Positions 2,567 through 13,489 of a stretch of DNA of 64,000 nucleotides are shown piece after piece. Location of the stretch: assembly GCF_004102725.1 (NCBI RefSeq), contig NZ_LHQS01000002.1:549984-613983 (forward strand), read 5' to 3'. A program made the translations under genes and the position numbers. Within the stretch, counting starts at the first letter, position 1. Every line of letters begins with the position of its first letter. The notes below the pieces were generated by a model that worked only from the letters and a program-made list of their open reading frames with translations, did not search any database and was not told the origin of the DNA. Source of the DNA: Methanoculleus taiwanensis (GTDB lineage: Archaea > Halobacteriota > Methanomicrobia > Methanomicrobiales > Methanoculleaceae).

Positions 2567-5380
2567 TTACTCTCCTTCAAATTCTGCGGGATCTATTCTG
2601 AGGACATTGCAGTTTTCCCGTATTGCCCGTTGCAGGTTTTCGTCAAATCCTTTATCGTCCTTCGCTTCGATCTCGATTTTGATTGTGACGCTCGCACTCG
2701 GCCGCGAGGTAAACTGCGTGATCACTTCGTCCACGATCTGGCTGAACGCTATCTTCGCTGTGATCGGATCGATCTCTACGCACCCGTAAAACCGATTCTT
2801 TACCCGGGATACGGGCGGCAGTGGGGGAGGTGGTAGGGGAGGTGTTCCACCGCCTCTCTCATTATCACCATCGGGAATCGGTGGCTTGACTGGCTCAGGC
2901 GGCTCGGGCGGCTTGATGCTCTCCTCATAGACCGCCGCGGCGGAGGGCTCGATCAGGAGGAGGGCATCGTCGACGACGATCGATCTTCTGCCTTTCCCGA
3001 AGGTGAAGCCGATGTACTTCTCCCCATCTTTTCCCGCCGCGAGGCCGAAGTAATCTTTTGTATCCGTCCCTGTCTCGATTGTCCGCTTCAGGACGTCCTT
3101 GTTCAGAAGGCGGGGAAGGTAGAGGTAACGGCAGGTGTTCTCCCAGAATTCGCCGGCCTTCATCTCCGTGTCGGCGTCGTTCCAGAACCACCTCTTGAGC
3201 AGGCTGGAGAGGTGAATGGGCGCCCACTCGGTGATCAGAGCCTCGTTATCCTTCAGGACTCGCTCGATCTCCTCGACCGGCCTTTCGGCACCGGGATTGA
3301 TAGAGTAAGGCTCCAACTCAATGTCGGATGAGGTCTTACCGCCCGTGATCTCCTGCACCGGCACGAGCAGCCAGCGGTAGGTTTCCCGGATCCCCCTTGT
3401 CACCGTCCGGCGAGCCATCTCAAGGTTGCTCTCCGCGCTCTTCGCCATCAGGTTGTCGAGCACGATCCGGTTCTCCCGGTAGTCGGAGACGATCGAGGCC
3501 CATGCCAGCATCGAGCGGATGTGGTCGGTGAGCAGGCGCACGTTATCGGCGTCGGCGGCGAGGAAGACGAGGCGATTCTGCCGGTGCCGCGGCTGGTCGC
3601 CCCGCTTTCTGAGGTACTCGGTGGCGCAGGTCTTCGCCATCTGAACATCGCTCTTCCCGTAGTAAGCGTGGGGGGGGAGAGCGATCAGCCGGAGGGCCGA
3701 ATCGTCGGGGATGTCACCACTGTTGGTGAAGATGTGTACACCGTCGAAGACCCCCTTTGCGATGGCCTTCTTCACCCCCTCCTGCATGGCCGGGATGATC
3801 TCTTCCTTTTCGTCGAAGCGTTTCTTCCGCTCCTCCATCTCGCGCCGGAGATTGGGGCGGATGTCGAACCAGTAACGGCCTTCTGCGCTGTTCAGGTAGT
3901 AGAGGCGGTCGGAAAGCCGGCGGAGGGCGTCCCGGAAGGCGCTCGTCTGCTGTCCGGGCTGGACGCTGCCGAGGAGGACCCGCTCCTCCTCGATCCCCTG
4001 CACCATGCGGTTCGGCGTCCCCGGGGCGCTGCCGAGGAAGACCGTCCTCGCCACCCGGCGGCAGGCCTGCAGGCTTCCGAACCGGGTGTCGCGGCTCTCG
4101 ATCGCGGTCGTCTCCGCACGGTCGCCGTCGATGTCGCGCTCGAGCACCGGATCCCAGCCCTGTGGGAGGTAGTAGATCATTTCGTTGCGGGTGCTGCCGT
4201 CGTAGAGAGGCAGACTGCCGGGCATGATCAGGAGATCGTTGTTGCCGTCCTTCCAGAGGCGGTGGATCACCTTCGCCATCAGTTTCAGGACGCCGCGGGT
4301 GCGCTGGAAGTTATCGAGGGACGACCAGTCATCATAGAGCCGGTCGAAGACCTCGGGGTGGATCGGGTAGGCATTGACGAGCCGCTGATAGTAGCGGCTC
4401 TCCTGCGTCTCCCGCGGGAACTCAGGTCCCGAGTCGATGTAGAGATCAGCGAACGAACGGCAGACCGCCTCTGCGGCGGCGGTGTCCGTGATCCCGGAGA
4501 AGAGCCGTCGCCTGACGATCTCGAAAGCCTCCTCGGCGGCGACCGGTTTCCAGAGCGCCTGCACGCGGCCGAAGTAGTGCTCAAGGGTGCGGAGTGTGGC
4601 GACACCCTGCCGGCTCCCGGCCTCCTGATCCGATTCGGGGAGGGAGGCGAGCAGAACGGCGTTCGGCACTGCCTTCACCGCCTCGGTGAGGGCCTGCATG
4701 AAGGATATGTTGGTGTCGTAAGTCCCGCCGGCGAGCTTCGTCTTCTCGTCGAACTGCCTGATGTAGGCGACGAGTTCGTCCATCAGAATGACACAGGGGG
4801 CGTATCTGGCGAGGAGGCGGGCGAGCGTTTCCTTGCCCGGGGAGGTGCCGGACTCGTCGGCATCCCGGATCTGCTCGTAGGCCTCTTCGCCGCCGAGCTG
4901 CCAGGCGAGGTCGCCCCACATGGTGTTCACTTTAATGCTTCCCCGCTCGTCCGGCATGTTCGGGGAGAGTTTGGTGCCGTCGATAACGACGACCCGTGCC
5001 TTTGGGAGGTCGATGACGCCGGCGGCGTCGAGGATCGGGGGGACACCCTGCAGGTCAGCCGCTGGCACAGTGCCGCGGGCGAGGTGGTAGACGGCGAGCA
5101 TGGTGTGCGTCTTGCCACCGCCGAAGGCCGTCTGGAGCTGGATGACCGGGTCGCCGCCAGTGCCGGTGATCCGTTTCACTACCGAATCGAGGAGAAGGCG
5201 TATCCCCTCGGTGATGTAGGTGCGCCTGAAGAAGAGCACTGGGTCGCCGTACTCGGGGCTTGCGGTGCCGGTGTGGACGCGGGAGAGGTCGGCCGCAAAC
5301 TCCGCCTGCTGGAAGGTCCCCTTCAGGACATCTTCGTGGGGTGCGGCGATCTCCCGCCAGGGTCTGAGTGTCATGGTCAT
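2567..5380 (-). CDS. DUF499 (COG1483) AAA+ ATPase of defence operon
   Basis: 937 residues. The P-loop is AFGGGKTH (85-92) and Walker B is [12 protein letters not shown] (about 196-207). This is the DUF499 signature, related to the PglY ATPase of BREX/Pgl. A proline-rich linker (about 830-865, with [10 protein letters not shown]) separates the ATPase body from a C-terminal domain. Family members are found in defence islands next to DUF1156 methylases. It is the last gene of the leftward operon; its ATG overlaps the TGA of the DUF262 gene (ATGA), so the two products are made in coupled amounts and probably act in one complex. Role inferred: ATP-driven control of restriction or modification on invading DNA. 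Confidence 0.88.
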
Positions 5381-7059
5381 TCTGATTTATACCCCTGAAT
5401 CATGTATCCGAATTTCTCAAGGATGAGCTTCTCTCTCTCCTCGATAAATTTCTCATAATTGTCAAGTTTCCAGAGTTCGGGTTTCCTCGGGATCAGGTGC
5501 ATGTCAAGGTAGGCATCATCCTTGTCAGCAAACCATTCGTTCGGAGGTATGTCCCGTTTTCCCGAAAATCCGTTCTCATCCGCGGTGAGGAGCATGAGAT
5601 TGGCAAGCTGGTCGCGATCTTCCTGGTAATATCTGAGAAGATTCCGTTTCCCGTTTTCCGGATTGACTTTCTTTACTGTTCTGAGGAGAGACTGCGGGAA
5701 GATATGATCAACCTGGGGGAGGTTGTCCTCATACGCTGGCGTGTAGTTGAAATGCCTATACCAGAGGTTGAAGATGAGGTGGATATTTTTTGATCCGTAG
5801 TACTGCCCGAAAATGGTGTTCTCCGTCAGTTCCAGGCTGCGTCCGTCTTCGCGGATGATGCCGAAGATCTCATTCACATCAAACTCTCCAGTGGAGCTGA
5901 TAGCCTTCGCACAACGGTCGATTAGATTGTCGGGCGTTCCGCTAAACGCTCCGCTGAGGAGTGTCCGGAGGAGGTATTCGTCGAGGTTCCGTACCGTACC
6001 CCATTTTTCGGGGAAGTGGTAGCGGAAGTATATGAGGGGGATGAGGACGAGATAAGACGGCATTGCCTTGTCCGTCCGTATGAAGGTCTTGCCGTAGAGG
6101 TAATCCCTCACGTCGCGGATGGCTGAAGAGATGCCCTCCCATTTGTCAATGAGTTCCTGCCTGGTACCTTCATCACGGAACTTTTTGACTTCGTATGATG
6201 CCCCTTTGTTGAGGAGTGTCAGGCAGGTTTTCAGGACAAAGTCACGGGTAAAGTCATAGCCGACGCGGTTGAGATCGTCGAGCAGTTCTTCCATCTGCTC
6301 ATCCGCAGCCTCCCACGATGATGTCAGGAGAGAGAAGAGCAGATCGGATTTGCCGAGGCGTGTTCCTCCCGAGTTGGCGCGGATGAAGATCTCGACGACA
6401 TCATCTTCCCTGTAGGCGTCCGCGTTATCAACGCTATCGAGCTCCTGGTAGACCACCAGTTCTTCGTTGATGAACTGTTTTGCGATGCGGGCCACATTGT
6501 CTTCGATGCGCTCCTCTTCTGCTTCGGTCAGATCTCGCCCGGCATTTTTGATAGTTGATTTGGCGATCCTGCTTGAGAGTTCATTGCTGAAGACCAGATC
6601 CTTGAATTTGATCCAGGGGAATACAGCCTTTTCGGCATCTAAAAACTGGAATTTATAGCGGATGTCCTCCGGTGCAACGAGATCGCCACTGAGTACATCA
6701 AAATACATCTCACGCTTCTCATAGCTTCCCCGGAGACCGATGAAGAGGCTTTGCAGTCTCTGCTGGCCGTCGAGGACGAGAAGTTTGGTTTTGTCATCTT
6801 CGGGAACGTAAAAGTCGGTGAGACGGAGGGTGCTTCTGTAGTTGTCGATGAATTTCCGGCGGCGGATGCGGGACTTGGTGCGCCATACGAGGAGGGTGCT
6901 GATAGGGTACTCCCGCATGATGGAGTCGAAGAGGCGCTCTATCTGGTCTTCTCTCCAGACGAACGGCCGCTGAATGTTCGGCAGCCAGAAGCCTCCGTCT
7001 CTCTCCTCATTATTGAGGTAACTGACCATCTTTCGGATGGTCTCTTTTTGGTTTTTCAT
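5377..7059 (-). CDS. DUF262-DUF1524 fused nuclease (GmrSD-like)
   Basis: 560 residues. The N-terminal DUF262 (ParB/Srx-like) domain shows IQRPFVW (29-35) and the diagnostic DGQQR (97-101), an NTP-binding motif shared with DndB-like and GmrS proteins. The C-terminus carries a DUF1524 HNH-type nuclease with VDHIFPQS (His452 region) and a downstream Asn in QLANLML (about 484). GmrSD type IV enzymes use these two parts to cut modified DNA. Here the protein lies between a DNA methylase and an ATPase, spaced 6 bp from the methylase and overlapping the ATPase start by 4 bases. It may be the operon's effector nuclease, aimed either at unmodified DNA or at phage-modified DNA. Confidence 0.87.
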
Positions 7060-12900: not shown

Positions 12901-13489
12901 CGAACGGGTTGCCGCTCGGCGATTGTTCCGCAAGGTCGCGGGAGAAAATGGTGAACGCAAGGCCGAACTTCTCGTACATCTCATCCTGCCACTGCTCCAC
13001 AAGGCTTCCCGGAGCGACGATCAGAATACGCTCGGCATCCGCCCGCATCAGAAGCTCCCGAATCAGCAGGCCGGCCATGATCGTCTTGCCGGCGCCGGGA
13101 TCATCCGCCAGGACGAACCGGAGCGGCTGCCGGGGCAGCATCGACTCGTAGACCGCCGTGATCTGGTGGGGGAGCGGCTCGACGTTCGAGGTATGCACCG
13201 CCATCATCGGGTCGAAGAGATAGGCAAGGTCGATCCGGTAGGCCTCCGCAGCGAGCTTGAACTCCTCGCCGGGTGCGTCGAACGCCCACGGCCGCCCGGC
13301 CTTTGCGAGGGAGAGCGAGGGCTCTTTGGAGCGGAAGAGCATCTGCTCCTTCACCTGCCCGTCGGCTGTCTTGTAATAGACCGTCAGCGCGTTCTCGCCC
13401 ACCGGATCGGTTGATACAATACGCACGATCTGGCCGGGTTCGATACCGTTAACGGTCGCATCTTTTTTTATGTCTTCCAGTCGTAGCAT
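9974..13489 (-). CDS. SNF2-type helicase with C-terminal DUF3883 domain, first gene of defence operon
   Basis: 1171 residues from the ATG at 13489 ([10 protein letters not shown]); a longer frame up to 13558 is possible but begins in unconvincing sequence. Superfamily 2 motifs are clear: Walker A DDPGAGKT (129-136), DEAH (230-233), motif [11 protein letters not shown], motif [13 protein letters not shown] and motif [12 protein letters not shown]. The C-terminal part (about 1060-1150) has RHIEVKGRA and a following Tyr/Asp pattern of DUF3883, a restriction-endonuclease-like domain. DrmD of DISARM is also an SNF2-type helicase, but DrmA/B/C are absent here. The gene heads the operon helicase, methylase, DUF262-HNH, DUF499. 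A weak TATA-like stretch lies near 13570-13580. Confidence 0.9.

Follow-up and report, generated by a model that had tools for sequence, protein, structure and literature searches.

The 64-kb window analyzed here, the whole stretch at positions 549,984–613,983 of contig NZ_LHQS01000002.1 in the 2.75-Mb assembly of the methanogen Methanoculleus taiwanensis, carries an operon of the Hma type, in which a gene for a GmrSD/BrxU-family enzyme is located between the methyltransferase gene hmaB and the ATPase gene hmaC. The open reading frame (ORF) list of the window shows four minus-strand ORFs head to tail at 2567–13558, separated down the operon by gaps of 13, 6 and –4 bp as read from the sequence. 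The first gene encodes HmaA, an SNF2/RapA-like helicase with a C-terminal, nuclease-like NOV_C domain, assigned by PADLOC, Pfam and motifs to 9974–13489. Its ORF of 1194 residues extends to 13558; the alternative start Met24 at 13489, used in the preliminary description, is the point at which the PADLOC model (residues 24–1193) and most HmaA homologs start to align. The NOV_C domain spans residues 1069–1158 of the 1194-residue ORF (10085–10354; Pfam 3.1e-19). HmaB (7066–9960; PADLOC and Pfam) is a DUF1156 DNA methyltransferase of 964 residues with a DPPY motif, and HmaC (2567–5380; PADLOC, Pfam and motifs) is a DUF499 AAA+ ATPase of 937 residues. Between them, at 5377–7059, lies the embedded enzyme of 560 residues (HEC-05 in PADLOC), with a GmrSD_N/DUF262 domain at residues 16–245 containing RLFDS and DGQQR (6325–7014; Pfam 9.1e-33), and a GmrSD_C/DUF1524 (HNH) domain at residues 420–548 containing DHIFP (5416–5802; Pfam 1.4e-08). 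Its stop codon and the first possible start of HmaC share an ATGA overlap at 5377–5380. The four-gene layout, the three gaps and this ATGA coupling, as given in a preliminary description of the window, are exact to the base; starting HmaC at its second Met, at 5374, would yield a 2-bp gap instead of –4, and the PADLOC HmaC profile begins at residue 3.

PADLOC analysis identified the three outer genes as those of an Hma system, with the HmaA, HmaB and HmaC models matched at 2048.8, 1605.2 and 1458.2 bits, in the order A–B–C on the same strand and with one gene, matched by the HEC-05 model at 344.4 bits, between B and C. The Pfam scan assigned SNF2, Helicase_C and NOV_C to HmaA, DUF1156 to HmaB, GmrSD_N and GmrSD_C to the third gene and DUF499 to HmaC. 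Both results agree with the preliminary description, which had named the domains (SNF2/DUF3883, the latter being NOV_C, DUF1156, DUF262-HNH and DUF499) and pointed to a likeness to Hma. The Hma system dates from 2021, when it was put forward as a candidate of three genes with 1,638 instances in 26 phyla (PMC8565338), and in 2026 the group was renamed Type-1 BREX-related (BR) systems, centred on DUF499 (PMC12839542); the latter paper cites experimental support for the helicase. The window operon shares with these systems the helicase with a C-terminal nuclease-like domain, the DUF1156 methyltransferase, the DUF499 ATPase and their order, each of the three core genes scoring above 1400 bits against its own model, but differs in the additional gene between B and C and in an HmaC without the HEPN fusion. 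Assignment to BREX or DISARM, already set aside in the preliminary description, was rejected, as PglZ (PF08665) was unmatched across the single genome searched, and the NCBIfam DrmD equivalog scored 397 bits, short of its cut-off of 610. NCBIfam models for DUF1156 and DUF499 anti-phage proteins likewise scored under their cut-offs. The Pfam domains of the operon ORFs differ from DUF3780, the mark of Type-2 BR systems, a comparison confined to these ORFs and made without a DUF3780-directed search around the locus.

The core proteins retain their motifs. In HmaA, Walker A, DEAH and the C-terminal WD...IEVKGR are intact, the last being kept as [WY]D...IEVKGR in all 19 aligned HmaA sequences. The NOV_C domain with this motif probably corresponds to the C-terminal PD-(D/E)XK restriction endonuclease domain described for Type-1 BR helicases (PMC12839542). 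Replacement of a lost HmaA nuclease by the GmrSD-like enzyme was rejected, because the HmaA motif is intact and the enzyme is thus no obvious substitute for a lost Hma nuclease. In HmaB, the DUF1156 domain (Pfam 2.9e-31) is accompanied by intact DPFxGGG and DPPY (DPPYYDN) motifs. The DPPY motif marks amino-methyltransferases. On the basis of this motif and of PMC12839542, HmaB is predicted to be an amino-methyltransferase, as expected for a Type-1 BR system, and not a 5-methylcytosine (m5C) methyltransferase, as HmaB is termed in PMC8565338. HmaC (DUF499, Pfam 1.2e-31) has intact GGGKTH and LMDE motifs, and the Pfam scan gave no HEPN match on it; such a fusion on the DUF499 protein is recorded in 1370 of 2446 taxa (PMC12839542), and we found a HEPN_Swt1 domain on HmaC of three related loci (L048–L050). 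Neither HmaC nor HmaB has a sequence homolog in the PDB at E ≤ 0.01.

The embedded enzyme matches the HEC-05 model over residues 1–552 (PADLOC, which gives no curated cut-off for this 344.4-bit match), and its position inside an Hma locus also agrees with that assignment. Membership in the GmrSD/BrxU family follows from a single chain that joins DUF262 to DUF1524 and retains RLFDS, DGQQR and DHIFP; residues D451, H452, N487 and N496 are invariant in alignments of 8 and 25 sequences. Its sole sequence match in the PDB at E ≤ 0.01 is BrxU of Escherichia fergusonii plasmid pEFER (7p9k; 4.1e-37, residues 21–552). A structure predicted from 25 sequences (predicted local distance difference test 86.5; predicted template modeling score 0.73) was searched with Foldseek, and the only three matches at E ≤ 0.001 were BrxU entries (7p9k, E 5.4e-25). 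VIA-align likewise ranked BrxU first for the model (Z 25.9–26.2), with a root-mean-square deviation (rmsd) of 15.5–16.6 over 489–509 residues, followed by DndI (Z 11.6) and SspE (Z 10.0 and below). Given this large rmsd, and the TM-score of 0.46 and rmsd of 16 that Foldseek gave against 7p9k over the whole chain, the whole-chain comparison suggests that the domains of the predicted enzyme match the BrxU fold but sit in a different relative placement from that in the crystal. Thus, the enzyme resembles BrxU (7p9k, 7p9m) in its DUF262–DUF1524 composition, in RLFDS, DGQQR and DHI[YF]P and in its predicted domain folds, but the two are 24%–26% identical, BrxU partners BREX whereas the window enzyme partners Hma, and the host of the latter is an archaeon. 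In BrxU, these motifs are reported to serve nucleotide binding, hydrolysis and DNA cleavage; with ATP, the protein cuts 5-methylcytosine (5mC), 5-hydroxymethylcytosine (5hmC) and glucosylated DNA, and it complements BREX (PMC8565348; PMC12409352).

The preliminary description had regarded the placement of a DUF262-HNH gene between methyltransferase and ATPase as unusual. It is already in print: GmrSD-like HEC-05 (= BrxU) genes were described in 2024 as embedded in Hma clusters and acting independently (PMC11411939), with HEC-05 traced there to a 2024 preprint by Payne et al. The window enzyme, which fits the HEC-05 model and sits inside Hma, agrees with that description. The term "Hma-embedded candidates" is used in PMC12988326 and PMC10855318, and in PMC12839542 the HNH enzymes singled out as most notable among the auxiliary nucleases of BREX and BR systems are those of the GmrSD family. 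A comparable arrangement is TgvAB on VPI-2 of Vibrio cholerae, described as a GmrSD-like system inside a methylation-based restriction operon; it differs in comprising two proteins within a Type I restriction–modification system, against a single protein within Hma at the window. Since Hma with an embedded HEC-05 has been published, the arrangement is not new; it is real and recurrent, and the window locus is one more member.

Starting from HmaC, we found matches in 28 of 232 genomes of the class, and HEC-05 matches in 46. Seven of the class HmaC proteins exceed 1400 bits, and five of these, including that of the window, have a GmrSD gene between hmaB and hmaC; in the other two (G077 and G120) hmaB adjoins hmaC with gaps of 36 and 124 bp. 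The B–GmrSD–C order is thus shared with four other genomes of the family, all methanogens, whose enzymes occupy the same place and are 84%–86% identical to that of the window. Both hmaB and hmaC are visible in 16 class loci, the window included, and the slot between them holds a GmrSD gene in five, other genes in five and nothing in five (L046, L047, L050, L054 and L060); in the remaining one (L057), hmaB and hmaC lie on opposite strands. The other occupants are HEC-01 pairs (L048 and L049), a TIR protein (L051), three ORFs (L052) and a DUF4062 protein of 1290 residues with no PADLOC match (L055). On plasmids, where four loci were opened from the best 60 of 140 HmaC records, the slot is empty in L165, L166 and L167, which are among the best bacterial plasmid matches. 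At the junction of hmaA and hmaB, L166 carries a gene pair for an ATPase and an HNH protein, and L168, with a HEPN-bearing HmaC, has an ATPase and DUF4435 pair; the B–C slot of L168 contains a gene for a four-helix bundle. The slot is therefore interchangeable in its content. In a sample of 392 genomes of the phylum, 81 had HmaC and 103 had HEC-05 matches; best matches were listed, at most three candidates per genome were scored and 20 regions were judged by their ORF tables. Among the matches listed, only G000, G046 and G051 combine a full-length HEC-05 with a full-length HmaC at a distance of a few kb, and weak HmaC matches are found near a partial GmrSD-like ORF (G525), about 4 and 10 kb from HEC-05 (G408 and G351) and near a 28-bit HEC-05 match (G441).

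The converse survey, starting from the enzyme, covered the best 80 of 264 relatives in a genome collection; it leans to close relatives, since these are the best of a set found through two short peptide patterns. Thirteen of the 80 lie in the B–C slot, four between hmaA and hmaB (L120, L129, L132 and L137), one after hmaC (L084) and two in a divergent C–B–G–A arrangement (L066 and L070), and 60 show neither an hmaB nor an hmaC match. One of the 13 slot loci (L061) was judged to be the same contig as G068 (L045) from its matching coordinates; the other 12 are bacterial and lie beyond the five methanogens. Four of the slots (L068, L106, L136 and L138) have further content besides the GmrSD gene. 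As the B–GmrSD–C order recurs in the four family genomes and in these 12 bacterial loci, the gene is not a chance insertion, a possibility raised in the preliminary description. Flanks of 4 kb or more on both sides are available for 36 of the 60 loci lacking an hmaB or hmaC match; the other 24 fall short of this on a side. Ten neighboring proteins, hand-picked from eight of the 36 loci, were named by their best PADLOC match: they include DrmD (L073), DrmMI (L117), Type III methyltransferases (L076, L112 and L119) and Type I restriction enzymes (L118 and L139), and three of the ten (from L062, L073 and L076) had no PADLOC match. The closest plasmid relatives, from Nostoc and Nitrosospira, are 65% and 53% identical over 97%–99% of the length, and Hma neighbors are absent around both within the stretch examined, which was 3 kb on one side of the Nitrosospira gene. 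In phage genomes, only distant GmrSD relatives (below 33% identity) were found, in 8 of 50,697 records, and there is thus no sign in that collection of phages carrying this cassette. Together, these placements suggest portability: the GmrSD-like enzyme would be a companion of Hma and not one of its subunits.

The history of the enzyme was assessed on a quick tree of 86 rows, computed with no mixture model; L061 was left out, and for L140, whose gene is split by a frame break, the larger piece was used. The B–C label requires seven changes on this tree, at least three of them by well supported branches, a number that may be inflated because the 24 short-flank loci were labeled as being without Hma. 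Together with the clustering of the label, this pattern is consistent with repeated entry into the slot (or loss) and with persistence inside lineages. Pairwise distances were compared over the slot set without near-identical groups (72 pairs where HmaA is involved and 125 otherwise; L068, L083 and L136 contributed partial hmaB). Spearman coefficients were 0.75 for HmaB–HmaC, 0.69 for HmaA–HmaC, 0.50 for HmaA–GmrSD, 0.43 for HmaA–HmaB, 0.35 for GmrSD–HmaC and 0.29 for HmaB–GmrSD. The enzyme is loose against HmaB and HmaC, yet against HmaA it is no looser than HmaB; therefore, the co-divergence test is mixed and lends only mild support to a history of the enzyme separate from that of the Hma core.

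Some of the related loci also carry duplicated core gene ends. Upon screening 63 Hma/DUF499 loci against eight end fragments of the window proteins at E ≤ 1e-4, a search that diverged copies would escape, three were found to carry truncated second copies beside embedded genes. In L043 (7483–9013), the start of hmaB is repeated ahead of a YhcG-type nuclease gene; L068 (1–6289) shows ends of hmaB and starts of hmaC in alternation with a BrnT toxin pair, a UvrD-like gene and the GmrSD gene; and in L047 (11476–12868), a second hmaA end stands with HicB-like pieces. A fourth candidate, L044, was rejected, since we interpret its overlapping double match to the hmaA start as a frame break and not a copy. 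At the DNA level, the better matching copies share 78%–93% identity with the resident gene, against 75% for the second hmaC start in L068. L047 looks like a plain tandem duplication; the copies in L068 and L043 would be consistent with recombination of alleles that differ in slot content. Truncated copies of this kind may be scars of module entry into the operon.

Around the operon, a gene for an Orc1/Cdc6-type ATPase at 1427–2554 on the plus strand converges on the Hma operon; the genome has four Cdc6_lid matches, of which this is one. On the other side, a frame of 963 codons at 15212–18103 (minus strand) lies in a G+C-rich stretch, has no match in Pfam, PADLOC or NCBIfam under the limits applied, and overlaps a 558-codon frame on the opposite strand, likewise without a Pfam match; it may be a spurious long frame. 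A TPR-repeat protein of 1348 residues is encoded at 19053–23099 (plus strand), and a phage-type integrase gene and a DDE transposase gene at 23272–25347 lie within a stretch of lower G+C content (0.46–0.53 in 2-kb steps over 18001–26000), which suggests a genomic island.

Taking these data together, we consider it quite probable that the operon combines a restriction system of the Hma (Type-1 BREX-related) kind with an autonomous Type IV restriction enzyme of the GmrSD/BrxU family embedded between hmaB and hmaC, with the following putative division of labor, modeled on published relatives. HmaB would label the host's own DNA with methylated adenine (or N4-methylcytosine). HmaC and HmaA would scan and destroy unmarked foreign DNA, HmaA with its own C-terminal nuclease domain. 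The DUF262/HNH enzyme, driven by nucleoside triphosphate and acting alone, would cut virus DNA with modified bases, probably cytosines, and in this way cover the gap left by viruses that escape Hma through DNA modification. The shared operon would then serve to express and transfer the genes together and would not imply an obligate complex. The two activities need not clash, as the predicted DPPY-type mark differs from the 5-position cytosine mark that BrxU cuts. Several points weigh against an autonomous enzyme. The fraction of relatives outside Hma is uncertain, given the 24 of 60 loci with less than 4 kb on a side; the B–C label is clustered on the enzyme tree (0 of 500 shuffles as low), so that slot lineages persist; and the enzyme tracks HmaA no worse than HmaB does, being clearly looser only against HmaC. 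Among the five methanogens, its identity of 84%–86%, compared with 78%–83% for HmaC, also fits a functional tie. The –4-bp junction with hmaC, seen in eight of the 13 slot loci, could mean dosage coupling, and the independent action of HEC-05 in print concerns other members of the family (PMC11411939).

The same observations bear on whether the GmrSD-like protein is instead an integral Hma effector loaded or gated by the HmaC ATPase, as the preliminary description had proposed. The order B–GmrSD–C common to the five methanogens and the 12 bacterial loci, the 4-bp overlaps with hmaC and the distance correlations, weak with HmaC (0.35, n = 125) and moderate with HmaA (0.50, n = 72), would agree with such a role. 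However, the enzyme is also encoded apart from Hma, in some cases next to genes of Type I, Type III or DISARM systems, it is missing from some close Hma relatives (L046, L047 and plasmid loci L165, L166 and L167), HmaA retains a nuclease motif of its own, and unrelated modules occupy the same slot; we found no specific support for loading or gating and regard an integral effector as unlikely. A broader form of this idea, in which the Hma junctions, above all hmaB/hmaC, are cassette slots that exchange effectors through homologous recombination between the ends of core genes and whose occupant is activated through HmaC, appears decidedly unlikely as a joint claim; if true, one sensor platform would serve interchangeable effectors.

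The embedded enzyme might otherwise take the place of the HEPN RNase found N-terminally on many HmaC proteins, a separate effector gene then accompanying an HmaC that lacks HEPN. Indeed, the HEPN_Swt1-bearing HmaC proteins examined (L048–L050) have no GmrSD in the slot, and in 12 of 12 loci among the 80 relatives the HmaC ORF directly after a slot GmrSD gene has 931–960 codons, with no room for a HEPN domain. Against this, HEPN-less HmaC with an empty slot exists (L046, L047 and the plasmid loci), HEPN-bearing HmaC can be accompanied by an embedded module too (L048 and L049), and in L084 the GmrSD gene directly follows an HmaC ORF of 1089 codons, a length sufficient for a putative HEPN domain; the pattern may reflect ancestry alone, and we think this substitution very unlikely. 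A chance or decaying insertion without function would explain why the gene is missing from some close relatives of the operon, but is hard to reconcile with an open frame of 560 codons that keeps all family motifs and with a gene in the same place, at 84%–86% identity, in four other genomes, and we consider it extremely improbable.

With the window locus and its relatives, the published arrangement of Hma with HEC-05 is now seen in methanogens, beside related operons in which the slot is empty or otherwise filled. Comparing such operons offers a natural way to ask whether an embedded module is a passenger or belongs to its host system. Should the proposed combination of an Hma system and an autonomous GmrSD-like enzyme be correct, a single operon would unite a layer of defense against unmodified DNA with a layer against modified DNA.

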